From Actinomycetospora sp. NBRC 106378 (GTDB lineage Bacteria > Actinomycetota > Actinomycetes > Mycobacteriales > Pseudonocardiaceae), in contig NZ_BSTT01000023.1 in the NCBI RefSeq assembly GCF_030269685.1, positions 1 to 64,000 on the forward strand: 64,000 bases of DNA, read 5' to 3'. How positions within the stretch are numbered: position 1 is the first letter of the stretch; each line of letters starts with the position of its first letter. The position numbers and the translations under genes were made by a program. The notes under the pieces were generated by a model that was not told where the DNA came from, did no database searches, and saw only the letters and a list, made by a program, of their open reading frames with translations. Below, piece by piece: positions 5,338 to 16,124 of this stretch.

Positions 5338-5754
5338 TCACGCGGCGGGCTCCAGGGTGCCGGCCTGCTCGACCTTCTGCTGTGCGACGACCTCGGGGCG
5401 GTAGTGCTCGATGATGTCCATGAACTCCGCGGTCTCGGGCTCGGGGACGCCGAGGAAGCGCAGGGTGGCCTGGATCTCGTAGTACACGGCGTCGAACTGC
5501 TCGTCGGTGATGTGCAGCGAGGTGTGGGCGGCGATCATGTCGAGGCCGGGGTAGCACTTGGGTCCGCCGGCGGCCTCGATGGACCAGGCGGTGACGAGGA
5601 ACTTGTAGCCGGGGCCGTTGGCGGCGACGTGGTGCTCGGCGACGCCGGGGTTGGCGATGACGCCGGCGTTCTCGAAGAGCCGGTCGACCAGGACGTCGAC
5701 CGCGCCGGCGATCGCGTAGGTCCCGCCGAGTCGGGTGTAGAGGCTGTCGGTCAT
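5338..5754 (-). CDS. Truncated hemoglobin, group I-like
   Basis: 138-residue 2-over-2 globin. It opens with LYTRLGGTYAIAGAVDVLVDRL (helices A/B), has the glycine-rich GGPKCYPGLDM segment between helices E and F, and carries the proximal haem histidine in MIAAHTSLHI (His77). The end of helix H is recognisable in HYRPEVV. The usual B10 Tyr position is occupied by Phe in the VDRLFENAG segment, so distal ligand chemistry may differ from mycobacterial HbN. Typical roles are O2, NO or cyanide-type ligand binding. It diverges from the first small-family gene across a short promoter region with a palindrome, so it probably belongs to the amidase/tubulin cluster. Confidence 0.88.
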   Translation of the reverse strand: MTDSLYTRLGGTYAIAGAVDVLVDRLFENAGVIANPGVAEHHVAANGPGYKFLVTAWSIEAAGGPKCYPGLDMIAAHTSLHITDEQFDAVYYEIQATLRFLGVPEPETAEFMDIIEHYRPEVVAQQKVEQAGTLEPAA

Positions 5755-5829
5755 GTCGTCCCCCAGGGCGCGATCGAGTGGTGGTCGATCGGAGCGTGCC
5801 GAGCGGGCGGACCCCGACGCCAGAGCGGT

Positions 5830-5846
5830 AGTTCCATTTCGGAACT
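5830..5846. promoter_or_regulatory. Palindrome between globin and small-protein genes
   Basis: AGTTCC-ATTTC-GGAACT is a perfect 6-bp inverted repeat with a 5-bp centre in the divergent region between the globin and the 5879 gene. It is more AT-rich than its surroundings, as expected of an operator. The cluster's MarR or the nearby PaaX-type protein are candidate ligands; no experiment is implied. Confidence 0.45.
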
Positions 5847-5878
5847 GTTTTACGCGATCGTCACGATGGTCGCGAAGT

Positions 5879-6241
5879 ATGGTCGGCGTGACGACGCAGG
5901 ACGGGAACGACCGGCTCGACTGGGAGCAGGTCCGCGCGCGCTACGCCGGACGGCCCTCGCTGGCGTCCCTGCAGGGGACCTCCCGGGTGCAGGTGGAGGA
6001 GGTCGACGACGATCGCATCTGCCTGAGTCAGCGGCTCTGGCGCGACTGCGTCTCCCGGGACGACCTCGACACGGCGCTCGCCCTCCTCCGTGACGGCCGG
6101 CTCGATCCGAGGCCGATGGCGTTCGCCGAGGGACTGCGCCGCCACTACGCGTCGGGGCCCCGGGTGGAGACCGGGTGCACGCGGGGCCCGAACCTGACGG
6201 CGGTGATCTTCGCCGACCTCGGCTACCTCAGTTCTCCCTGA
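5879..6241 (+). CDS. Small cluster-specific protein, family member A
   Basis: 120 residues, no family recognised. It aligns along its length with two other small proteins here (10865-11164 and 14591-14890). All share W-x5-R-(Y/F)-x-G near the start, a D(D/E)-x-(Y/I) strand, RLW-x-D-x(6)-L-x-(K/T)A in the middle, an R(M/L) turn, and a C-terminal A-x-(V/I)-(L/F)-x-(D/H)-LGY/I. This copy is the most divergent: it carries an insert (RVETGCTRGPN) and extra cysteines. The start may be ATG 5879 or GTG 5888; neither has a strong ribosome site. The last 14 bp overlap the end of the convergent ligand-binding protein gene. It is probably a subunit or adaptor of the tubulin-like proteins. Confidence 0.7.
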   Translation: MVGVTTQDGNDRLDWEQVRARYAGRPSLASLQGTSRVQVEEVDDDRICLSQRLWRDCVSRDDLDTALALLRDGRLDPRPMAFAEGLRRHYASGPRVETGCTRGPNLTAVIFADLGYLSSP

Positions 6242-7352
6242 CCCCGGAGGAGAGGCGGTCGAGCACGTCGAAGTGCACCCCCCGTGCCTCGGCGAGGTAG
6301 ACGTCCTGCACGGCGTGGGCGCTCCGCACGACGACGTCCCCGCGCGGCCCGCCGTACCGGACCTCCTCGCTCACCGCCAGCAGGTCCTCGCGGCGCAGCG
6401 AGCCCGCCCGGCGCACGAGCGCGGCGTAGAGGTTCATCCCCTCGTAGCAGGACTCGCCCAGGCTCGAGGGCACCGGGGCGCGGACGCCGAACCGCCGGCC
6501 GAACCGCGCGGTGAAGTCGAGGGCGTCGCTGGTCGCGAGGTCCTCGAAGTACCCGGCCGCGGAGTAGAGCCACTGCGTGGCACGGGCACCGGAGGCGAGC
6601 AGCATCGTCTCGTCCATGAGGGTGGACAGGCGGGTGCGCCGGTGGTGGTGGCCGCCTGCGGCGAAGGCGCGGTTGAAGTGCACCGCGTCCTCCCCGACGA
6701 GCAGCATCAGCACACCGTCGGCGCCGCTGCGCTCCACGCGGCGCAGCACCGGCTCGAAGTCCCGGGTACCGAGGGGCACGAAGATCTGGTCGGCGAGCGG
6801 GCGGTCGTGGCTGCGGGCCCAGCGCGCCGCGACGGCGGCCGAGGCCCGCGGCCAGACGTAGTCGTTCCCGACGACGGCCCACCGGCGCACCCCGAGCTCG
6901 GAGCGCATCCAGTCCAGGGCCGGGGCCAGCTGGTTCGCCGGGGTCTCGCCGGTGACGAGCACGCCCGGCGTGCGCTCACCGCCCTCGTAGAGCGCGGTGT
7001 AGACGTACGGGACCTGGCCGGCGACGCGCGGGGCGATGCGGTGCCGGACCGCCGAGATGTGCCAGCCCACCACCGCGTCGACCCGGCCCGCGCGGACCAG
7101 CGTGGCGACCTCGTCGGCCACGGCACCGGGCTCCGCGCCGCCGTCGACGTGGTGCAGCGTCACCGGTCGGCCCAGGAGCCCGCCCGCCGCGTTCACCTCG
7201 ACCGTGGCGAGCTCCGCGCACATCCGGCAGGACAGGCCGAACATGCCCGCGGAACCCTGCGCAGGGGTCACGAGCGCGACGCGGACCTCGTCGTCGGCGC
7301 GCCGCGGAGCCGGGATCGGCGGAAGGGAGGAGAGATCGGCCACGATGGGCAC
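6228..7352 (-). CDS. AmiC/NhlC-like periplasmic-binding-fold ligand sensor
   Basis: About 374 residues in the type I periplasmic binding protein fold used by branched-chain amino acid/amide/urea receptors. Family features are VALVTPAQGSAGMFGLSCRMCAELAT with AVNEINAAGG-type wording (VEVNAAGGLLG), a hinge near WHISAVRHRIAP, WAVVGNDYVWPR, and the C-terminal SCYEGMNLYAALVRRAG. No signal peptide or lipobox is visible, so it is more like cytosolic amide sensors (AmiC of Pseudomonas, NhlC/NhhC of Rhodococcus) than a transport receptor. The ORF stays open upstream; GTG 7352 or GTG 7343 are the sensible starts because the protein fold begins just after. Divergent from the MarR gene; likely senses an amide or nitrile. 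Confidence 0.75.
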   Translation of the reverse strand: MPIVADLSSLPPIPAPRRADDEVRVALVTPAQGSAGMFGLSCRMCAELATVEVNAAGGLLGRPVTLHHVDGGAEPGAVADEVATLVRAGRVDAVVGWHISAVRHRIAPRVAGQVPYVYTALYEGGERTPGVLVTGETPANQLAPALDWMRSELGVRRWAVVGNDYVWPRASAAVAARWARSHDRPLADQIFVPLGTRDFEPVLRRVERSGADGVLMLLVGEDAVHFNRAFAAGGHHHRRTRLSTLMDETMLLASGARATQWLYSAAGYFEDLATSDALDFTARFGRRFGVRAPVPSSLGESCYEGMNLYAALVRRAGSLRREDLLAVSEEVRYGGPRGDVVVRSAHAVQDVYLAEARGVHFDVLDRLSSGVREN

Positions 7353-7450
7353 CCCCGGGCGGGTCGAGGTCGGACGCAGTATGGCGCCGCCGGGTCTCTT
7401 TCCGGGAACCTTGTATCGTTTCGAGCAGGTCAACACCCCGGGAGGTCACG

Positions 7451-7933
7451 ATGGGCGGTCGGCCGCGTGCGACCGGTCACCGGGTGGTGGACCTCCTCGA
7501 TCTCGCCGACCGCACCGTGAACGCCTGCCTCGCCCGGGTCACCGCCGCCTCGAACCTGAGCCGGGAGCAGTGGCGCACGCTGATGTTGCTCGACGAGGGC
7601 GTCGGCGAGGACGGGCTGGACGCCCCGGGCCACAGCATGGGTGAGATCGCCGTGCGGGCCGCCGTCCCCGCCCCGACCGCCACCCGCGTGGTCGACAGGC
7701 TGATCGCGGAGGGCTTCGCCTTCCGTCGGAGCGACGACTGGGACCGACGCCGCGTCCTGGTCCACATCTCGGCGGCGGGCCACCGGGTGGTCGCGAGCGC
7801 CGCCGCCGACCTCGACGAGGCGTTCGGCACCGTCCTGGCCGACCTGGGTACGGCCGACCGGATCGACCTCATCGGGCTGTTGACGCGCCTCGAGAGCGCG
7901 ATCGGCGGCGAGGAGCGGGTCCGCACGCCCTGA
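7451..7933 (+). CDS. MarR-family transcriptional regulator
   Basis: 160 residues, winged-helix MarR fold. The first helices LDLADRTVNACLARVTAASNLSREQWRTLMLLD, the recognition region MGEIAVRAAVPAPTATRVVDRLIAEGFAFR, and the wing DDWDRRRVLVHISAAGHRVV (the DxRxxxV motif of MarR proteins) are clear. It would act as a dimeric repressor whose ligand is a small aromatic or amide-like compound. Placement between the AmiC-like sensor and the amidase mirrors NhlC/NhlD or NhhC/NhhD in Rhodococcus nitrile hydratase clusters. The ATG follows GGGAGGTC. Its stop codon lies inside the first unit of a 17-bp tandem repeat. Confidence 0.88.
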   Translation: MGGRPRATGHRVVDLLDLADRTVNACLARVTAASNLSREQWRTLMLLDEGVGEDGLDAPGHSMGEIAVRAAVPAPTATRVVDRLIAEGFAFRRSDDWDRRRVLVHISAAGHRVVASAAADLDEAFGTVLADLGTADRIDLIGLLTRLESAIGGEERVRTP

Positions 7934-8002
7934 GCTCCCGCACGCCCTGAGCTCCCGCACGCCCTGAGCTCCCGCACGCCCTGAGCTGCCGCACCCTCTG
8001 AG
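7921..8002. repeat. 17-bp tandem repeat spanning the MarR stop codon
   Basis: Four head-to-tail copies of CCGCACGCCCTGAGCTC occupy 7921-7988 (the last base of the fourth copy differs), followed by a decayed fifth copy to about 8002. The first copy encodes the last residues and the TGA stop of the MarR gene. A 17-bp period is not codon-phased, so the expansion is non-coding. It lies in the leader between the MarR and amidase genes, where it may alter spacing or read-through. Confidence 0.85.
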
Positions 8003-8133
8003 ACGAAGCTCTCCCCTGTCATCAGGTTGCGCTCGGGTTACTTCTACTCTGGAAATATTGTCATTGCCGCCGCGGCTCGTACGGTCGGTTCCACCAGCGG
8101 GTGGATTCCTCACGGACGACAGGTGGAACGGGC

Positions 8134-9159
8134 ATGCGTCACGGAGACATCTCGAGCAGCCACGACGGCGTCGGCGTCGCGGTCGTCAACTACACGATGC
8201 CGCGCCTGCACGACCGGGAGGGCATTCGCGCGAACTGCGAGAAGATCGCGGAGATGGTCGTCGGGATCAAGCAGGGATTCCCCGGCATGGACCTGATCAT
8301 CTTCCCCGAGTACTCGACGCACGGGATCATGTACGACCGGCAGGAGATGTTCGACAACGCCGCGTCGTGCCCCGGGTTCGAGACCGAGATCTTCGCCGAG
8401 GCCTGCCGGACGGCCGGGGTCTGGGGCGTCTTCTCCCTCACCGGGGAACGCCACGAGGACCACCCGAACAAGAACCCGTACAACTCCCTGGTCCTCATCA
8501 ACGCCGAGGGCGAGATCGTCAACAAGTACCGCAAGATCCTGCCGTGGGTGCCGATCGAGGGCTGGTACCCGGGCGAGCACACCACGGTGGTGGAGGGGCC
8601 CAAGGGCCTGAAGCTGGCCCTCATCATCTGCGACGACGGCAACTACCCCGAGATCTGGCGCGACTGCTCCATGAAGGGCGCCGAGCTCGTCGTCCGGCCG
8701 CAGGGTTACATGTACCCGGCCAAGGAACAGCAGATCATGATGGCGAAGTCGATGGCCTGGGCGAACAACGTCTACGTCGCCGTCGCGAACGCCACCGGAT
8801 TCGACGGCGTCTACTCCTACTTCGGGCACTCCTCGGTGGTCGGCTTCGACGGCCGCACCCTCGGCGAGTGCGGCACCGAGGAGATGGGCGTGCAGTACGC
8901 GGAACTGTCGATCTCGCTCATCCGTGACGCGCGGAAGAACTGGCAGTCGCAGAACCACCTGTTCAAGCTCCTGCACCGCGGCTACACGGGCGTGATCCAG
9001 TCCGGCGACGGCGACAAGGGCGTCGCGGAGTGCCCGTTCGACTTCTACAAGACCTGGGTCACCGACCCGGCGCTCGCCCAGAAGCAGGTCGAGGAGATGA
9101 CCCGCGAGTACATCGGGACCCCGGAGGCCCCGATGGAAGGCATCCCGAACGGGGCCTGA
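8134..9159 (+). CDS. amiE: Aliphatic amidase (acylamide amidohydrolase), AmiE type
   Basis: 341 residues, nitrilase superfamily, near the usual length of about 346 for AmiE. It hydrolyses short aliphatic amides to acid and ammonia in the cytosol. The protein starts MRHGDISSS and keeps the full catalytic set at the AmiE numbering: Glu59 in FPEYS, Lys134 in KYRKI, Glu142 in PIEGWYPG and nucleophile Cys166 in [12 protein letters not shown]. The ATG has AGGTGG 8 nt upstream. It sits behind the MarR/AmiC-like regulator pair and ahead of the tubulin-like genes, with a hairpin between. It is very conserved compared with its neighbours. Formamide, acetamide and propionamide are the family's typical substrates; the real one here is unknown. 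Confidence 0.95.
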
Positions 9160-9180
9160 CCCCCTGAAGCAGGCACACCG

Positions 9181-9217
9181 GCGGACCCGGGCGGCGACGA
9201 CGCCGTGGCCGGTCCGC
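9181..9217 (+). terminator. Intercistronic hairpin between amidase and first tubulin-like gene
   Basis: GCGGACC (9181-9187) pairs with GGTCCGC (9211-9217), and inner GGCG/CGCC segments can extend the stem. No T-tract follows, so it may be an mRNA-stability or partial-termination element rather than a full terminator. It is the first of three hairpins that divide the cluster. Confidence 0.4.
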
Positions 9218-9281
9218 GGACGGCGCGCGCCCTCGTGGCCCCGCCCTTCCCGTCCCGTAGCGCATCCAGGAGGACCCGGCC

Positions 9282-10859
9282 ATGGCCGCCGAGCACGACC
9301 ACGATCACGACCACGACCACGACCACGGTGACACCGCGATGGCGCGCATCGAGGCGCTGCGCTCCGAGGGGGTGCACCGCGCCGGCGACCACGAGGGACC
9401 GTTCTCCCTCCACGTGCTGGGGCTGGGCGCCACCGGGGCGGACCTGATCACCTCGATCATGCGCAACCAGCCCGACGGCTTCCTCTCCGAGCCGGGCACG
9501 CGCTTCTCCGCGCTGGCGGTGGACATCGGCGACGAGGACCTCGCCCAGGTGCGCGACGCGGCGAGCGCGCTCCCGGCGGAGCAGTCGCACGTGGCGACGG
9601 TGTCCCTGCCGGTCCCGACGAACGCCGACCTCTCCTACGCGCTCAACCGCTACCGCGAGTTCCTCAAGATGGAGTACCCGCGGTACTACTGGAACCCGAA
9701 CTACGAGCCGTGGTTGCCGGCCGACGTCGAGATCGCCCCCTCCGACGGCCACTACTCCCGCGCCGTCGCGAAGGCGATCTACGGCGCGGAGTACTACCAG
9801 GGCCGCGAGATCGCGGGCGCACTGGACGACTTCGCCGCGAGCGTCATGTCCAGCGAGGCCACCCCGCTCGTCGTCGTCGCCTTCTCGATGGCCGGGGGCG
9901 TCGGCAGCGGCATCGTCGTGGAGATCGCGCGGCACCTGTCGTCGATCAAGCTGGGGCGCCGGCCCTGGGTGGTGGGCCTCGGCATCCTGCCCAACGGCGC
10001 CGACCCGGCCGAGTACGCCGACGGCTCGCTGTTCCCGGTGATCAACGAGCTCGACTGCATGATCGACACCGAGAAGAACAAGGGGGTCATGGCGGTCTGG
10101 GGCGACCTCTACAAGAACCCGTTCACCGGTGGCTTCTTCATGGTCGACCAGAACGACGTGCAGGAGATGACCGGCGACCTCGCCGCCACCCACGCCTACG
10201 TCGACGCCGGGATCGGCTCCTTCCTCACCCGCGACGCGAGCGTGCACCTCTACGAGACGCTCAAGGCGCTGAACTGGCTCGCGGTCCCCGCCGACGCCTG
10301 GCACCCCGCGATCCGCGGCGAGCAGGGCGACCGCTGGATCAACATGCTCGCGGTGCGGAAGCTCGCCGACATCGACTCGCTGGGCACCTCCGGCCTGGTG
10401 AAGGGCTTCTCGACGGAGTACCTGGAGGCCCGGGTGTTCACCGGCGACCTCGATCCGGCGGACGCGGAGTCGGTGTCGGCGGCGGTGTCGGGGGCGGCGA
10501 CGGGACGGGTCGACCCGGTCGTCCTCGGGCTCCCCGGGGGCGACGACCTCGTCAGCGTCGTCATCCCGCGCGCGAGCAAGCTCGACCTCGCGGCCTTCGT
10601 CCCGGCGCGGGACTACTACGACACCCTCGAGTGGGACGACAAGCTGCTCATCCACTCGTGGCTGCTCGACCTCGGCGTCATGCTCTGCGAGCCCTCGATC
10701 CGGTTCGACGGGATGGGCGGCGAGTGCATCTGGGGCTGCGCCTGCTGGGTGGTCGTGCCGCACGCCGCGATCCGGGGGGAGGCGGCGGAGCCGGGCGCCG
10801 AGGCCGTCACGGAGTCGCTCGCCGACCCCGAGCCCATCGCCCCCTTCGTCGGCGGCTGA
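9282..10859 (+). CDS. Tubulin/FtsZ-like protein 1 with N-terminal His-Asp tract
   Basis: 525 residues. Residues 5-15 alternate His-Asp (six His), a plausible Ni/Co/Zn-binding tail. From residue 43 the protein reads like the tubulin/FtsZ nucleotide fold: LHVLGLGATGADLITSIMR (first glycine-rich loop) and the tubulin-signature-like FSMAGGVGSG at 201-210 (family GGGTGSG). It shares with the 11288 protein the blocks YPRYYWNPNYEPWLPAD (about 132-148), VMAVWGDLYKNPFTGGF, and the C-terminal GECIWGCACWVVVPHAAIRG, where Cys482, 486 and 488 form C-x3-C-x-C. It is longer than FtsZ and differs from CetZ/TubZ. AGGAGGA precedes the ATG. Fold assignment is good; the function (filament, metal-bound enzyme or chaperone) is unknown. 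Member B of the small family follows 5 bp later. Confidence 0.75.
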   Translation: MAAEHDHDHDHDHDHGDTAMARIEALRSEGVHRAGDHEGPFSLHVLGLGATGADLITSIMRNQPDGFLSEPGTRFSALAVDIGDEDLAQVRDAASALPAEQSHVATVSLPVPTNADLSYALNRYREFLKMEYPRYYWNPNYEPWLPADVEIAPSDGHYSRAVAKAIYGAEYYQGREIAGALDDFAASVMSSEATPLVVVAFSMAGGVGSGIVVEIARHLSSIKLGRRPWVVGLGILPNGADPAEYADGSLFPVINELDCMIDTEKNKGVMAVWGDLYKNPFTGGFFMVDQNDVQEMTGDLAATHAYVDAGIGSFLTRDASVHLYETLKALNWLAVPADAWHPAIRGEQGDRWINMLAVRKLADIDSLGTSGLVKGFSTEYLEARVFTGDLDPADAESVSAAVSGAATGRVDPVVLGLPGGDDLVSVVIPRASKLDLAAFVPARDYYDTLEWDDKLLIHSWLLDLGVMLCEPSIRFDGMGGECIWGCACWVVVPHAAIRGEAAEPGAEAVTESLADPEPIAPFVGG

Positions 10860-10864
10860 GTCCG

Positions 10865-11164
10865 GTGGCCGTCCCCTGGTCGGAGATCGTCGCCCGCTAC
10901 AGCGGCGGGGCGCAGCTGCCGTCGATGCCCGGGGCCCGCACCCTGCAGGTCACCGGGGCCGACGACGAGTACATCTACGTGTCCCACCGTCTCTGGTCGG
11001 ACAAGCTCACCCGGGCCTACCTCGAGAAGGCGATGACGCTGCTCGACGAGGGCCGGATGACCCGCGACTACGCGTCGGTCATCGATCACTACCGCACGTT
11101 CATCGCCGACGAGCGGCCGACGACGGCCGCGACGGTCCTCAAGGACCTCGGCTACGTCGACTGA
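10865..11164 (+). CDS. Small cluster-specific protein, family member B
   Basis: 99 residues, GTG start 5 bp after the stop of tubulin-like protein 1, so almost certainly co-translated with it. No known domain. Conserved with the other two members: PWSEIVARYSGG, the strand DDEYIYVSHRLWSDKL, helix RAYLEKAMTLLDEGRM, then a second helix and TAATVLKDLGYVD. Predicted mixed alpha/beta, soluble, no signal peptide. The tight linkage to a tubulin-like gene suggests a binding partner, capping factor or small enzyme subunit. It is closest to member C. Confidence 0.75.
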   Translation: MAVPWSEIVARYSGGAQLPSMPGARTLQVTGADDEYIYVSHRLWSDKLTRAYLEKAMTLLDEGRMTRDYASVIDHYRTFIADERPTTAATVLKDLGYVD

Positions 11165-11186
11165 CCTCCGGCGTCGGTCGACCGAC

Positions 11187-11225
11187 GGCGTGGCGGGGCC
11201 CGGTCCGAGCGGGCCCCGTCACGCC
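11187..11225 (+). terminator. Strong intercistronic hairpin before second tubulin-like gene
   Basis: GGCGTG + CGGGGCCCG (11187-11202) pairs with CGGGCCCCG + CACGCC (11210-11225) around a 7-nt loop, with one mismatch pair (11193/11219). No T-run follows. It could terminate partially or protect the 3' end of the upstream message and so set the ratio of the two tubulin-like proteins. Confidence 0.5.
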
Positions 11226-11287
11226 CTCCACCCAGCCCCAGCGGCACCGGGCGCGTTCCCGCGCGCCCGCGACAGAAAGGTTCCACC

Positions 11288-12943
11288 ATGGGAATGTCGC
11301 TCTACCACTCCGCGACGGGCAGCCAGTCCCCGCACTGCATCCACGCCCTGGGCATCGGCAAGACCGGCGCCTACATGGTCGAGGCCCTGCTGCGCACCGG
11401 CGAGATCGAGGACATGCTCGACGACCCGCGCGCCCGGTTCACCGGCCTCGCCGTCGACATCGGTGAGCAGGACATGCACGAGCTCAAGGAGTACGCGGGC
11501 GGCTTCACCCAGCGCCTGCAGGAGCGGGAGATCCCGACCGACCGCCACCAGGTGCGGACGGTGGCGCTGGAGACCCCCAGCTCCGAGGAGCTCCGGACCA
11601 GCCTCAACCGCTGGCGCGAGTACCTGAAGATGGAGTACCCGCGGTACTACTGGAACCCGAACTACGAGCCGTGGCTGCCGGCGGACGTGGAGATGCCGAA
11701 GCCGGGCGAGACCTGCCCGCGGGCGATCGCGAAGGCCATCTACGGCCACTACTACTACGGCGGCGACAAGACCCTGGAGAAGGAGCTCGACCTCTTCGTC
11801 GACTCCATCAACAAGACCAAGCTCCCCTCGATGGTGCTGGTCTTCTTCTCCCTCGCCGGCGGCACCGGGTCCGGGATGGTCGTCGACATGGTGCGCCACC
11901 TGTCGAACGTGAAGCTCGGCCGGCGCATCCCGGTGATCGGCGTCGGCGTCCTGCCGTTCTCCGGTGACGAGGAGCACGCGGGCGGCAAGGCCGCGCTCTA
12001 CCCCGTCATCAACGAGATCGACTGCATGCTCGACGACGAGAAGAACCAGGGCGTCATGGCGGTCTGGGGCGACCTCTACAAGAACCCCTTCACCGGTGGC
12101 TTCCTCGCCCTGCCCCAGGAGCACGCGTGGCAGCGCCTCGGCTCCTACACGAAGACCGGTACCCCGGCGATCCGCGACGGCCTGCGCAAGGGCGTCACCC
12201 GCAAGTTCGTCGACGACTCGTTCACCCGGTTCGTCGTGCAGGACTACGGCCGCCTGCTGTTCAAGATGCTGCGGCCCGCGGGCTTCACGGGCGCCCCGCA
12301 CGAGCGCAACATCTCCGGCGACCGCACCTGGACGGTCTACGACGTCGCGAAGTACACCCACCCCGGCGTCGAGGTGCTGCCCGGCCAGCCCCGGAGCCGG
12401 TGGCGTGAGGTCGTCACCAAGTGGATCGACTACATCCCGAAGTTCTCCGGGCTGAAGGAGGGCTTCAAGACCGACTACATCGAGTGCAACACGGTCGGCC
12501 CGCGCGAGATGTGGAACGACACGCTGCAGAAGAAGCTCGAGTCGGTGCTGGGGGAGTACCTGCTCGACGGGGACGACGGCACCCTCGTCACCAGCAACGG
12601 CGAGTTCTTCGACGAGCTCACCGTGTACTCGAACATCATCATCCCCGGTGTGGCCAAGACCGACCTCACGGCCTTCTTCGAGGCCCGGGACGCCTACGAC
12701 CAGATCGAGGACTGGGACACGAAGCTGATGATGCACTCGTGGCTGCTCGACCTCGGGGTGATCCTCTCCGAGCAGTCGATCCGCTTCGACGGCATGGCCG
12801 GCGAGTGCATCTGGGGCTGCGCGTGCTGGGTGGTGGTGCCGCACGCGGCGATCCGCGGCGACGCGACCCCCTCGGCGGACATCACCCAGGTCCAGCAGGC
12901 GCACATCGCGCCGATGGTCCAGACGCTCGTCGAGACGCCCTGA
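11288..12943 (+). CDS. Tubulin/FtsZ-like protein 2
   Basis: 551 residues. HALGIGKTGAYMVEALL (residues 19-35) is the first nucleotide loop, and FSLAGGTGSG (187-196) is nearly the classical tubulin signature, better preserved than in protein 1. Blocks shared with protein 1 include YPRYYWNPNYEPWLPAD (about 117-133), NEIDCM-D-EKN-GVMAVWGDLYKNPFTGGF, LMMHSWLLDLGV, and GECIWGCACWVVVPHAAIRG with Cys507, 511 and 513. It has a longer, aromatic-rich middle domain (about residues 290-450) and no His tract. The two proteins probably form a heteromer, as with alpha/beta tubulin or BtubA/B, though polymerisation is not shown. The ATG follows GAAAGG. A perfect hairpin lies after its stop. Confidence 0.78.
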   Translation: MGMSLYHSATGSQSPHCIHALGIGKTGAYMVEALLRTGEIEDMLDDPRARFTGLAVDIGEQDMHELKEYAGGFTQRLQEREIPTDRHQVRTVALETPSSEELRTSLNRWREYLKMEYPRYYWNPNYEPWLPADVEMPKPGETCPRAIAKAIYGHYYYGGDKTLEKELDLFVDSINKTKLPSMVLVFFSLAGGTGSGMVVDMVRHLSNVKLGRRIPVIGVGVLPFSGDEEHAGGKAALYPVINEIDCMLDDEKNQGVMAVWGDLYKNPFTGGFLALPQEHAWQRLGSYTKTGTPAIRDGLRKGVTRKFVDDSFTRFVVQDYGRLLFKMLRPAGFTGAPHERNISGDRTWTVYDVAKYTHPGVEVLPGQPRSRWREVVTKWIDYIPKFSGLKEGFKTDYIECNTVGPREMWNDTLQKKLESVLGEYLLDGDDGTLVTSNGEFFDELTVYSNIIIPGVAKTDLTAFFEARDAYDQIEDWDTKLMMHSWLLDLGVILSEQSIRFDGMAGECIWGCACWVVVPHAAIRGDATPSADITQVQQAHIAPMVQTLVETP

Positions 12944-12956
12944 CCCGCTGACCGCC

Positions 12957-12989
12957 CCGGGGCGCCCCGCCGTCGGCGGGGCGCCCCGG
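12957..12989 (+). terminator. Perfect 15-bp hairpin between tubulin-like 2 and NiCoT permease
   Basis: CCGGGGCGCCCCGCC (12957-12971), loop GTC, then GGCGGGGCGCCCCGG (12975-12989) is an uninterrupted 15-bp GC stem. It lacks a U-tract, as is common in actinobacteria. It probably reduces transcription into the permease and downstream genes. Confidence 0.6.
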
Positions 12990-13021
12990 CGCACCTGCAC
13001 GCCCCCGGAGAGGAACGCCGC

Positions 13022-14107
13022 GTGACCACGATCGCCCCGTCCCCGCTGAGCTGGTCACGCCGCGACCGCGTGCAGCTCTCGACCATCGTCGCGGTGATCG
13101 CCGCGCTGCACGTCCTCGGCTGGACGCTCTACCTCTCGCTGACGGCCGGTCCGCTCGGGGCCGGGGCGTTCGCCGGGGCCGGGGTCCTGGCCTACGTGCT
13201 CGGCGTCCGGCACGCGTTCGACGCCGACCACATCGCCGCGATCGACGACACCACCCGGCTCATGGTCGCGCAGGGGCGGCGCCCGGTCGGGGTCGGGTTC
13301 TTCTTCGCGATGGGCCACTCGTCGGTGGTCGTGATCCTCGGGCTGGTGGTCGCGCTCGCCGCCGGCCTCGCGAGCTCGAGCGGGGTCGACACCTTCCGCG
13401 AGATCGGCGGCACCGTCTCGACGGTCGTGGCCATGGTGTTCCTCGCCCTGGTCGCGGTGCTCAACGCCCTGGTCCTCGTCGGCATCGTCGGGGCCTGGCG
13501 GAAGATGCGGCGCGGGCAGCTCGACGAGGCCGAGCTCGAGCGGCAGCTGCTGAACCGCGGCCTGGTCAACCGCATCCTGGGCGGCCGGGCCCGCACCCTG
13601 ATCCGGCACTCGTGGCACATGTACCCGCTCGGCCTGCTCTTCGGGCTCGGCCTGGAGACGGCCTCCGAGGTCACCCTGCTCACCCTCTCGGCCTCGACGG
13701 CGTCGTCCGCGTCGACCGCGGGCGGCGCGCCGCTGCTCGCCGCGCTGACCCTGCCGGTGCTGTTCGCCGCCGGGATGAGCGCCTTCGACACGGCCGACGG
13801 CCTGCTCATGGGGATCGCCTACTCCTGGTCGAACCGAAGCCCGGCGCGGCGGCTCTTCTACAACATCGCGACGACGGCGGCGACCGTCACGGTCGCGGGG
13901 CTCATCGCGGCGGTCTACCTCGCCGGCGTGCTGGCCGACGACCTCGGGGTCACCGCGCTCGCGGGGTTCGCCTCGATCGCCGACGACTTCGAGCTGCTCG
14001 GCTACCTCATCGTGGGCTTCTTCGTCCTGGTGTGGGGCGGCGCCGCCCTGCTCTGGCGCGTGGGCGGCTTCGAGCGCCGGTCGGCCCCGGCCACCCCGGC
14101 GGGCTAG
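13022..14107 (+). CDS. NiCoT family nickel/cobalt permease
   Basis: 361 residues, about eight hydrophobic segments, inner-membrane secondary transporter of Ni2+ or Co2+. The NiCoT signature in TM2, RHAFDADHIAAIDDTTR, and the second family motif LGLETASEV are present, and a hydrophilic loop (residues about 160-190) separates the halves. The close homologue NhlF imports cobalt for nitrile hydratase in Rhodococcus, while HoxN, HupN and NixA import nickel for hydrogenase or urease. Sequence alone does not fix the metal. GTG start with a GGAGAGGA ribosome site. No nickel or cobalt enzyme is seen in this window, so the transported metal may serve the tubulin-like proteins or an unlinked enzyme. The next gene starts 5 bp later. 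Confidence 0.92.
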   Translation: MTTIAPSPLSWSRRDRVQLSTIVAVIAALHVLGWTLYLSLTAGPLGAGAFAGAGVLAYVLGVRHAFDADHIAAIDDTTRLMVAQGRRPVGVGFFFAMGHSSVVVILGLVVALAAGLASSSGVDTFREIGGTVSTVVAMVFLALVAVLNALVLVGIVGAWRKMRRGQLDEAELERQLLNRGLVNRILGGRARTLIRHSWHMYPLGLLFGLGLETASEVTLLTLSASTASSASTAGGAPLLAALTLPVLFAAGMSAFDTADGLLMGIAYSWSNRSPARRLFYNIATTAATVTVAGLIAAVYLAGVLADDLGVTALAGFASIADDFELLGYLIVGFFVLVWGGAALLWRVGGFERRSAPATPAG

Positions 14108-14112
14108 GCACC

Positions 14113-14586
14113 GTGGTGGACCGCGACGACCTCGTCCCCGCGTACGCGGAGTGGATCGACCGCGTCACGGCCACGTACGAGGCCGTCTCCTACACCTGCC
14201 GCGTCCGGCTCGGCGACCCCGCGGTCGCCGAGGGGGTCGCGGTGCACGTCGCGGGCGGCCTGGTGGCGCGGCCCGGGGTGTTCCGCTACTGGGGCCTGCC
14301 CTACTCCGGCCGCATCGCGAAGCTCGCCGAGGCGGGCATCGAGGACGCGCTCGCCGGGCGCGCCCGCCGCGGGTCCTTCGGGGCCCTGCGCGACGACCTC
14401 ACCGACCTGCCGCCCGCCCTGCAGACGGTCTTCGTCCTGTGCTGCGTCGAGGGGGTCGACGACGACGAGCTCGCCGCCGCCTGCGCGTGCGACGTCCCGG
14501 ACGCGGCGCAGCGCCGGGCGACGGTCCTGCGGCACATGTCCGAACTCGCCGTCCGTCACGTCGGCGACCCGACGGAGGGGGAGTGA
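14113..14586 (+). CDS. Sigma-factor-like protein (degenerate sigma-70 regions), tentative
   Basis: 157 residues, GTG start. The C-terminal half, LPPALQTVFVLCCVEGVDDDELAAACACDVPDA, follows the layout of sigma-70 region 4 (LPxxxRxVFvLrxxEGlsxxEIAxxlgxs), and the N-terminal stretch VSYTCRVRLGDPAVAEGVAVHV loosely resembles region 2. Both are degenerate, and the DNA-recognition helix is unusually Cys/Ala rich, so it may not bind DNA. It could instead be a cluster-specific adaptor. It lies between the permease and small-family member C, with gaps of 5 and 4 bp, so it is in the same operon. Confidence 0.45.
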   Translation: MVDRDDLVPAYAEWIDRVTATYEAVSYTCRVRLGDPAVAEGVAVHVAGGLVARPGVFRYWGLPYSGRIAKLAEAGIEDALAGRARRGSFGALRDDLTDLPPALQTVFVLCCVEGVDDDELAAACACDVPDAAQRRATVLRHMSELAVRHVGDPTEGE

Positions 14587-14590
14587 CGCC

Positions 14591-14890
14591 GTGCCGCTGG
14601 ACTGGGCGGGCCTGCAACGCGACTTCGGCGACGGCGGGGAGATCCCGACGGTGGCCGGCGGCAAGACCCTGCGCATCACCGCGGTGGACGAGGAGTACGT
14701 CCACATCCGGCACTCCCTCTGGCGGGACAGGCTGGCGCGGGCCCACCTCGAGAAGGCCGTCGAGCTCGTCGAGGCGGACCGCATGACCCGGCACGCCGGT
14801 CTGTTCGCCGAGGAGTACCGGACGATGGTCGCCGACGTCCGGGCGACCTCGGCGGCGCACGTCCTCAAGCACCTCGGAATCCTGGAGTGA
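14591..14890 (+). CDS. Small cluster-specific protein, family member C
   Basis: 99 residues, GTG start. Same length as member B and clearly homologous: LDWAGLQRDFGDGG, then KTLRITAVDEEYVHIRHSLWRDRLARAHLEKAVELVEADRM, ending in AAHVLKHLGILE. No family recognised, no cysteines, no signal peptide. It overlaps the next gene by 4 bp (GTGA). Three diverged copies spread across one locus, each next to a different partner (globin/sensor, tubulin-like 1, sigma-like), suggest non-redundant subunits rather than recent duplication. Confidence 0.72.
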   Translation: MPLDWAGLQRDFGDGGEIPTVAGGKTLRITAVDEEYVHIRHSLWRDRLARAHLEKAVELVEADRMTRHAGLFAEEYRTMVADVRATSAAHVLKHLGILE

Positions 14891-15414
14891 CGGTCGTCGA
14901 CACCACCTACGAGCTGCACGGCATCATCGCCGAGCCGGAGACCCTCGCGCCGGTCGTGGAGACCGTCGGCCACGCGCGGCCCTCGCTGCTGCAGGGCGGG
15001 GAGCTGGCGCTGCTCCCGCTGTGCGACGAGCTGTACGCCGCGATCGACCTGCCGGGGTTCCCGGTCGATCCCGACGGCGACTTCGAGCGGCTCTCCTCCG
15101 GGGTGGCGGCCCTGCTCACCGCCGCGTCCCGGCGGGGGGCGGTGGTCTACCTCGAGGCCGCCTACACCGGGGGGCTGGGGCACCAGGCCGCGGCCGCGTG
15201 GCTGGACTGCCAGGTGGTGTTCGGACCGGAGCTGCTGCTGCCCGACGAGCCGTTCCCCGTCTCGACCGCCGACCCCACCAGCGGCAGCCCGATCGTCCGG
15301 GCGCTGCGCTACCTCGGGGTGCAGGCGGTCGGGCGGGCCGACGAGTTCGTCGTCCTCGGCCTCGGCCGCCACCGCTCCACCCAGGACTGGTGCGCGGCCG
15401 GTTCGCCGCTGTGA
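14887..15414 (+). CDS. Uncharacterised protein of the tubulin/amidase cluster
   Basis: 175 residues, GTG start overlapping the previous stop by 4 bp; its own stop overlaps the next GTG by 4 bp, so it is translated between two coupled partners. I do not recognise a family. Visible features are an N-terminal strand YELHGIIAEPETLAPVV, the segment LALLPLCDELYAAIDLPGF, a small-residue-rich helix GVAALLTAASRRGAVVYLEAAYTGGLGHQAAAAW, and DPTSGSPIVRALRYLGVQAVGRADEFVVLGL near the end. No transmembrane segment or signal peptide. Its conserved coupling to the cluster implies a dedicated role. Nothing more can be said safely. Confidence 0.65.
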   Translation: MTVVDTTYELHGIIAEPETLAPVVETVGHARPSLLQGGELALLPLCDELYAAIDLPGFPVDPDGDFERLSSGVAALLTAASRRGAVVYLEAAYTGGLGHQAAAAWLDCQVVFGPELLLPDEPFPVSTADPTSGSPIVRALRYLGVQAVGRADEFVVLGLGRHRSTQDWCAAGSPL

Positions 15415-16124
15415 CCGTGCGGGACGCCCGGACGGTGCTGGCCGAGCTCGCCGCGCTGGGCCCGGCCTTCACCCTCGCGACCGGACCGGGCGACCCGTCC
15501 GCGGTCCCACTCGCACGACTGCTGACGGAGCCGGCGGTCCTGCGCGCCCAGGTCGCCCACGGCCGGGACCTGCTCGGCACCACCGAGGACCGGGTCGCGG
15601 CGTCGTGGCTGCACGGGGCGATGACGGCGCGCCTGGTCGCCCCCGTCCTGGGCGCGGCGGCGCTCGACGGGGTGGTGCTCCGGCTCGCGCGGAGCGATCT
15701 CCGCTGGCTCGCCCCCGACGGGACCGGGACCGGCGGCTGGTGGACCGACGGACCTCGCGCGGTCGCGTGCCACGGCGTCGAGGACGTGGCCGGGGAGCTC
15801 CTCGGCCCGCTCGCGGCCCTCGTCGACGCCCTCGGCGGGGTGGCGGCGGTCTCCGGGCGCCTGCTGTGGGGCGAGGTCGCGGCGGCGGTGGTCAAGGTGG
15901 CGCGGGTCGTGGAGCGCGTGCGGCCCGACCGGGGCGGTGTCGCGCGCGAGCTCGCCGGCGGTCTCCTCGCCGCGGAGCCGCTGGCGGGGGTGCAGACCGG
16001 ACCGCCCGAGCACCGCCGGCGGACCTGCTGCCTGGCCTACCGCCGCACCGGCGGGCACACCTGCGCCGACTGTCCGCTCGGCGCGTACCGCGACGGCGCC
16101 GACGTCCGGAGCGGGCGGCGCTGA
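15411..16124 (+). CDS. FhuF-like (2Fe-2S) protein, possible ferric/metal reductase
   Basis: 237 residues with GTG start coupled to the upstream gene (GTGA overlap). The C-terminus carries the FhuF 2Fe-2S signature C-C-x10-C-x2-C in CCLAYRRTGGHTCADC (near residue 215). FhuF proteins reduce ferric siderophores on the cytoplasmic side. The N-terminal part (LLGTTEDRVAASWLHGAMTARLVAPVLGAAAL) fits the helical FhuF domain. Here, far from siderophore genes, it may supply electrons to or from the cluster's globin or a metal centre. Last gene of the plus-strand run; it ends 4 bp before the convergent PaaX-like gene. Confidence 0.72.
   Translation: MTVRDARTVLAELAALGPAFTLATGPGDPSAVPLARLLTEPAVLRAQVAHGRDLLGTTEDRVAASWLHGAMTARLVAPVLGAAALDGVVLRLARSDLRWLAPDGTGTGGWWTDGPRAVACHGVEDVAGELLGPLAALVDALGGVAAVSGRLLWGEVAAAVVKVARVVERVRPDRGGVARELAGGLLAAEPLAGVQTGPPEHRRRTCCLAYRRTGGHTCADCPLGAYRDGADVRSGRR

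Follow-up and report, generated by a model that had tools for sequence, protein, structure and literature searches.

Tubulin-like proteins of Actinomycetospora sp. NBRC 106378 are very probably the subunits of a cobalt acetonitrile hydratase

The stretch of DNA analysed here (64,000 nt, positions 1 to 64,000 of contig NZ_BSTT01000023.1; hereafter the window) belongs to the 6.3 Mb genome of Actinomycetospora sp. NBRC 106378 and carries, at 5338-16124, a gene cluster whose core consists of two large tubulin-like proteins, A and B, and a small protein encoded between them. This core is very probably AnhA-AnhE-AnhB, the cobalt acetonitrile hydratase (ANHase) of Rhodococcus jostii RHA1, and we are fairly confident that the cluster as a whole constitutes an ANHase-type catabolic operon, with which a soil bacterium would probably use small nitriles such as acetonitrile. 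A preliminary description had presented the locus as a possible undescribed system. The cluster type is, however, already known through RHA1, and the possibility of an undescribed pathway was rejected on the RHA1 plasmid match together with the quoted ANHase literature.

The probable ANHase locus of RHA1 as counterpart

Open reading frames and profile searches recovered all genes listed in the preliminary description, at about the positions given there. The AnhA-like subunit A (9282..10859, 525 aa, with an N terminus rich in His and Asp) and the AnhB-like subunit B (11288..12943, 551 aa) are both encoded on the plus strand and have computed masses of about 56 and 62 kDa. Between them, on the same strand, lies the gene of an AnhE-like protein of 99 aa and 11.16 kDa (10865..11164), a putative cobalt metallochaperone. 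Upstream on the plus strand are a MarR-family regulator (7451..7933; PF12802, E 3.9e-9) and the aliphatic amidase AmiE (8134..9159), which converts amide to acid and reaches 665 bits against the NF009802 equivalog cut-off of 427; its reading frame spans 8101-9159, with 8134 as the likely start according to the match G000:C23:8134-9153. On the minus strand, an amide/urea-type binding protein, the true start of which is uncertain, is encoded at 6228..7436 (PF13458, E 5.7e-80; TIGR03407, 152 bits, far under the cut-off) and perhaps serves as a cytosolic sensor. A NiCoT-type nickel/cobalt permease follows downstream of B (13022..14107, plus strand; PF03824, 238.5 bits, E 1.2e-70). Among named relatives, Actinomycetospora chiangmaiensis is nearest at this locus, with a subunit B that is 99% identical.

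A protein search of plasmids matched R. jostii RHA1 pRHL2 at 56% identity. There, the order is MarR regulator, binding protein, aliphatic amidase, tubulin-like A, a 99-aa gene, a second large protein, a small HTH gene and a nickel transporter, i.e., the two loci share the A-AnhE-B order, the upstream amidase, the MarR regulator plus binding protein and a nickel/cobalt transporter. By position and alignment, the counterpart of window A is RHA1_RS41530, window B is 56-58% identical to the RHA1 protein, and window AnhE is 59% identical to the RHA1 99-aa protein between A and B. The loci differ in that RHA1 has the Cys site described below in A only, whereas the window has it in both subunits, and in that one AnhE is present in the RHA1 stretch examined and three in the window. 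In that RHA1 stretch, no counterparts were found for three window genes, namely the sigma-like, the 175-aa and the FhuF-like gene. The computed masses of the RHA1 proteins are 11.09 kDa for the small and 55.8 and 63.0 kDa for the large ones; the primary RHA1 ANHase abstracts reportedly put AnhE at 11.1 kDa and the subunits at about 56 and 63 kDa.

According to excerpts of two papers (PMC3511329, PMC3680314), the RHA1 ANHase is a cobalt enzyme with genes ordered alpha, AnhE, beta, in which AnhE is a metallochaperone, and the excerpted part of a review (PMC7193024) reports this order as well and names Co, Cu and Zn as the metals. The nitrile substrates named for RHA1 in such excerpts are acetonitrile, acrylonitrile, propionitrile and butyronitrile. 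A search of pRHL2 with PF02979 returned no classical nitrile hydratase alpha subunit, a silence which alone is not proof of absence; applied to the window genome, the search yielded three. From the pRHL2 locus match, the quoted gene order, the masses and the lack of a classical alpha match on pRHL2, we take the window core to be AnhA-AnhE-AnhB. Likewise, gene order, mass and context suggest that the ANHase described in RHA1 is the pRHL2 pair.

Tubulin-superfamily relationship and a C-terminal cysteine motif

Tubulin and its FtsZ relatives are known as cytoskeletal GTPases. Among 73 A/B proteins, 63 matched the Pfam family Tubulin_2 and 62 matched Tubulin at E 0.01, the only Pfam families to appear at this threshold. 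The window subunits A (30.0 bits) and B (29.3 bits) both pass the cut-off of 27 for Tubulin_2 (PF13809) and both stay under the PF00091 cut-off of 33, to which B nevertheless matches with E 1.2e-5. In a search of the PDB with a profile of the family, FtsZ or tubulin accounted for 36 of the 38 matches at E up to 1 (best E 3e-4; three at or under E 0.01). Profile-profile comparison with 25 FtsZ sequences gave weak probabilities (12% for B, 5.6% for A, 5.4% for both together) vs 0.1 and 0.2% for two amidase controls, and the alignment of B with FtsZ pairs the G-boxes. The likeness had already been caught by annotation, as the NCBI label on the RHA1 A protein reads 'tubulin-like doman-containing protein'.

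The family departs from FtsZ and tubulin in several ways: T7 was not detected, the G-box deviates, a C-terminal Cys site is present and the neighbouring genes are metabolic. The T1 feature GxGxxG is invariant. The strict G-box [SAG]GGTG[SA]G occurs in 30 of 37 B and 18 of 36 A sequences and deviates in the other 7 and 18, respectively; in the window it is strict in B, and A reads GGVGSG. The T7 motif NxDxx[DE] was not found as a conserved feature in a pattern scan, as opposed to a structural alignment: all 25 FtsZ sequences have the pattern, which turns up 4 times among the 37 B sequences, always near residue 460, and 4 times among the 36 A sequences, near residues 230 and 370. We therefore read A and B, judged from their sequences, as proteins of tubulin-superfamily origin with a predicted tubulin/FtsZ fold that would have lost polymer-coupled GTP hydrolysis. 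Proteobacterial clusters also contain, near CbbQ/VWA genes, a third tubulin-like paralogue that is shorter and has no Cys site at its C terminus (L020:14619-15764, L022:9983-11128, L037:7048-8397, L042:14619-15764, L059:4079-5332).

Both window subunits carry the sequence GECIWGCACW near the C terminus, at residues 480-489 of A (10719..10748, plus strand) and 505-514 of B (12800..12829, plus strand). Sequence, alignment and conservation mark it as a putative cobalt and active-site motif; the family form is GEC(I/L)xGCACW with a CxxxCxC spacing. Cys sites were counted in alignment A4, comprising 35 of 38 clusters (34 loci plus the window) and leaving aside three partial genes, those of subunit A in L027 (cut) and L029 (split) and that of subunit B in L057 (cut). 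A site was called lost if at least one of the three Cys was missing. Of the 35 clusters, 19 had all three Cys in both subunits, 12 had them in B alone and 4 in A alone; no cluster was without a complete site. This zero is not strong alone, because only about 1.4 such clusters would be expected under independent losses. In a quick tree, computed without the motif columns and without RHA1 among its sequences, A and B form separate groups divided by one fully supported branch. The fewest changes on this tree are one loss in A (a proteobacterial group of 12 rows) and one loss in B (Gordonia, Williamsia, Tetrasphaera). The pattern of loss in B is also seen in RHA1 and R. rhodochrous, and that of loss in A in Agrobacterium.

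To assess joint losses, we considered the 88 positions at least 93% conserved in both site-bearing groups and called a position lost when it was kept in at most 25% of the sequences. The A sequences lacking the site had lost 14 of them and the B sequences lacking it 23, with 11 of the 88 lost in both groups against 3.7 expected (P 1e-5). Excluding residues 505-517, 5 of 78 positions were lost in both, namely E111, Y121, N125, V259 and W476 (B numbering), against 1.6 expected (P 0.008). These P values serve as guides only, since positions within one protein do not vary independently and each group is a single clade. The rows of RHA1, R. rhodochrous and Agrobacterium, which stood outside the count, mostly agree. 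Y121 and N125 belong to the segment YYWNPN at residues 120-125 of B (11645..11662, plus strand), and their equivalents in A lie in an identical segment (9684..9701, plus strand). As both disappeared along with the Cys motif in two lineages, the segment is predicted to form a second part of the active site. The jointly lost positions thus probably mark the active site, and we infer a composite one made up of the YYWNPN segment, V259, W476 and the Cys motif. Altogether, the conservation pattern points to a Cys-based metal site, the metal of which would be cobalt.

Classical nitrile hydratases offer an analogy in the cobalt-type context, the amidase and NiCoT neighbours and a Cys-rich, claw-like motif. 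In contrast, no sequence relation was found: none of the 73 A/B proteins matched the classical families PF02979 or PF02211 at E 0.01. Homology to the classical enzymes was rejected accordingly as an explanation, the motif of A and B being CxxxCxC and not the C-(T/S)-L-C-S-C claw; the window subunits of about 56 and 62 kDa also set the two types apart. The window genome itself encodes three classical alpha subunits with CTLCSC (G000:C1:706000-722000, locus L093; G000:C14:145854; G000:C7:67525). The cluster on C1 has accessory genes of the same kinds as the window: nitrile hydratase beta and alpha (CTLCSC) are accompanied there by a binding protein, an amidase-signature amidase and a NiCoT gene whose DNA is 82% identical to that of the window copy.

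Conservation of the cluster and alternative readings

Two peptide patterns retrieved 37 related loci from the genome collection, a lower bound. They span Actinomycetota, Cyanobacteriota, Pseudomonadota and two contigs labelled Myxococcota, hence at least three phyla. In all 37, A, a homologue of AnhE and B follow each other in this order on one strand, a count that includes three loci with a partial subunit (L027, A cut; L029, A split; L057, B cut). An amidase homologue was present in 23 of the 37 loci (15 of the 21 loci of at least 20 kb) and a NicO, CbtA or CbiM homologue in 21, or 30 once CobW-like GTPases are counted. The co-occurrence check proposed in the preliminary description thus speaks mostly for its reading. 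Within the genus (n = 13 genomes), an aliphatic amidase above the cut-off was found in all four genomes with the tubulin-like pair and in none of the nine without it (Fisher p 0.0014), and a NicO gene lies directly downstream of B in all four. Taken together with the invariant core order, this shows that the clustering is not a matter of chance.

Some loci deserve separate mention. L027 is a 3.4 kb contig labelled as a deltaproteobacterial metagenome-assembled genome (MAG); its cluster stands near those of Pseudonocardia (82% to window B) and the contig may be misbinned. In L029, a cyanobacterial MAG contig, subunit A is split over two reading frames. Many proteobacterial clusters (such as L034-L048) contain genes for CobW-like GTPases, 2Fe-2S ferredoxin-like or CbbQ/VWA proteins, possibly a cobalt-insertion set aiding AnhE.

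The most likely function of the cluster would be the conversion of nitrile to amide by A/B with cobalt and of amide to acid by the amidase. In this scheme, cobalt would be imported via NiCoT and handed to the A/B pair by the middle AnhE, perhaps with its two paralogues. In A and B, the C-terminal GEC(I/L)xGCACW would hold the metal as a Cys3 (CxxxCxC) claw, analogous but not homologous to the classical CTLCSC claw and placed beside the conserved E111, Y121, N125, V259 and W476. Small aliphatic nitriles would be hydrated to amides at this site, the adjacent amidase would release acid and ammonia, and the binding protein and MarR regulator might sense amide or nitrile and induce the operon. That A pairs with B, which nitriles this organism converts and how the operon is regulated are likewise inferred. 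With somewhat less confidence than in the operon itself, we lean towards an evolutionary scenario in which a metalloenzyme arose on the tubulin/FtsZ fold, lost T7 and gained its own Cys3 cobalt claw, converging on the unrelated classical one; the ancestral pair would have had two sites, and two lineages would each have silenced a different one.

Several observations weigh against the identification or parts of it. The equation of the RHA1 enzyme with the pRHL2 locus is drawn from gene order, mass and context, and the search for a classical enzyme in RHA1 covered plasmid pRHL2 only. At 56-58% identity to the RHA1 protein, window B may act on a different substrate, and Cu and Zn are named beside Co as ANHase metals in the excerpted part of one review (PMC7193024). 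Four of the rows scored as lost (three A, one B) retain one Cys. The active-site prediction is carried by two losses at non-independent positions; the segment 110-127 adjoins an insertion in B of RHA1 and R. rhodochrous, where the alignment is less sure, and B of R. rhodochrous, without the Cys site, still has E111 and N125. Regarding gene content, an amidase homologue was not found in 14 of the 37 loci, including 6 of the 21 of at least 20 kb (some contigs are short), and a cobalt-handling homologue not in 7, including 3 of these 21. Some matches were weak, namely 2 of the 23 amidases (L026 and L058, about 240 bits) and four NicO homologues (L038, L040, L043, L059; 28-40 bits). Furthermore, genome G028 of the same order has the amidase without the tubulin-like pair, NicO occurs in 3 of the 9 same-genus genomes without the pair, and L023, with a 99% identical B, is without NiCoT between B and the sigma-like gene.

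It is conceivable, if rather improbable, that A/B form a metal-dependent hydratase of another substrate (e.g., cyanamide, an isonitrile or an aromatic nitrile) that feeds the amidase, so that the machinery is ANHase-like and the pathway is not one of acetonitrile use. The divergence of B from its RHA1 counterpart would fit this, as would the two complete Cys sites instead of one, and with three classical alphas in the genome a division of substrates is plausible. Against it stands the neighbouring amidase, which lies well within the aliphatic equivalog and is of the same kind as that beside the RHA1 pair. Still further from what we expect is that A/B form a complex without enzymatic activity, which stores cobalt for the classical nitrile hydratases of the genome or inserts it into them. 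The cobalt-type context, AnhE and the three classical alphas are compatible with it, but the RHA1 ANHase is itself reported, in the excerpts available, as a nitrile hydratase, the pRHL2 search returned no classical alpha subunit, and amidase homologues accompany 23 of the 37 loci.

The preliminary description had proposed inducible, metal-linked amide or nitrile metabolism organised by, or catalysed on, the tubulin-like proteins. Catalysis on the pair comes near the evidence presented here; the organising scaffold is unsupported, since the T7 GTPase motif was not found, the G-box deviates and conservation points to the Cys-based metal site. GTP-driven filaments that organise an amidase pathway are accordingly very unlikely. 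They would agree with the invariant T1 feature, with the G-box GGTGSG retained in many members and with the tubulin-superfamily scores. However, the T7 pattern is universal in the FtsZ set and rare in A and B, the strict G-box is kept by only half of the A sequences, and the Cys motif is among the best-conserved features common to A and B. FtsZ is not known to carry such a motif. The missing T7 and the pattern of Cys sites thus disfavour a cytoskeletal scaffold.

Returning to the ANHase reading, the excerpted parts of two papers treat the enzyme as one more gene arrangement of nitrile hydratases (PMC7329996, PMC7193024). Such a listing hides the tubulin-like nature of a little-studied cobalt enzyme family whose subunits resemble tubulin relatives by sequence. 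Among the matches listed for open-licence PMC papers, none tied nitrile hydratase to tubulin in its title or the start of its abstract. Within the literature searched, the following are new: the interpretation of the enzyme as a tubulin-superfamily protein, the predicted active site and its alternating loss, the occurrence of the cluster in at least three phyla, and the form that combines two sites with three AnhE paralogues. Should ANHase indeed be a cobalt enzyme with the tubulin fold, this superfamily would extend to a metabolic metalloenzyme, and hydration of nitriles by a metal bound to Cys would have arisen twice, on unrelated folds. The predicted residues make this idea directly testable, and the genus of the window offers the form with two sites per pair.

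AnhE paralogues and peripheral genes

Besides its two Cys sites, the window is distinguished by three AnhE paralogues and by accessory genes at the level of the genus. The three small genes had correctly been called paralogues: the outer two are 41% and 34% identical to the middle copy, and none of the three proteins matched a family above the cut-off in profile searches of the window proteins. Paralogue 1 (5879..6241, plus strand) and five orthologues have in common a C-x8-C Cys pair around a conserved LW stretch, at the positions of which the middle AnhE is without Cys. Paralogue 3 (14591..14890, plus strand) is the copy with 41% identity, and similar extra copies occur in other Actinomycetospora and Pseudonocardia loci. 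A search for solved relatives of AnhE gave nothing convincing. The best match of the AnhE alignment (A3, which included two non-AnhE rows) was tau, with E 1e-4 over 28 columns; RHA1 AnhE alone did not return tau, and its sole match at E up to 1 was the uncharacterised 3kg4 (E 0.008).

From the NiCoT gene to the FhuF-like gene, the spacing is as tight as the preliminary description had it, with gaps of 5 and 4 bp followed by overlaps. The gene after NiCoT (14113..14586, plus strand) encodes a degenerate protein resembling sigma-70 region 4. It is present at its place, but its assignment to the family is weak (PF08281, E 0.058, under the cut-off); homologues occur in 10 of the 37 loci and on an R. 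rhodochrous plasmid, in actinobacterial clusters. Three further genes had been counted as parts of the system and were rejected as core components, being instead lineage-specific additions. These are the truncated globin (5338..5754, minus strand; PF01152, 23.7 bits vs a cut-off of 21) and the FhuF-like protein with a C-terminal 2Fe-2S motif (15411..16124, plus strand; PF11575 FhuF_C, 26.6 bits vs 20.5), each peripheral and found in 2 of the 37 loci, and a 175-aa protein without a family above the cut-off (14887..15414, plus strand), found in Actinomycetospora clusters and in 4 of the 37 loci. The globin gene has a second genomic copy at G000:C25:47166-47556 with 89% DNA identity. In addition, a 17-base tandem array of 4.8 copies occupies window positions 7921-8002, between the end of marR and amiE.

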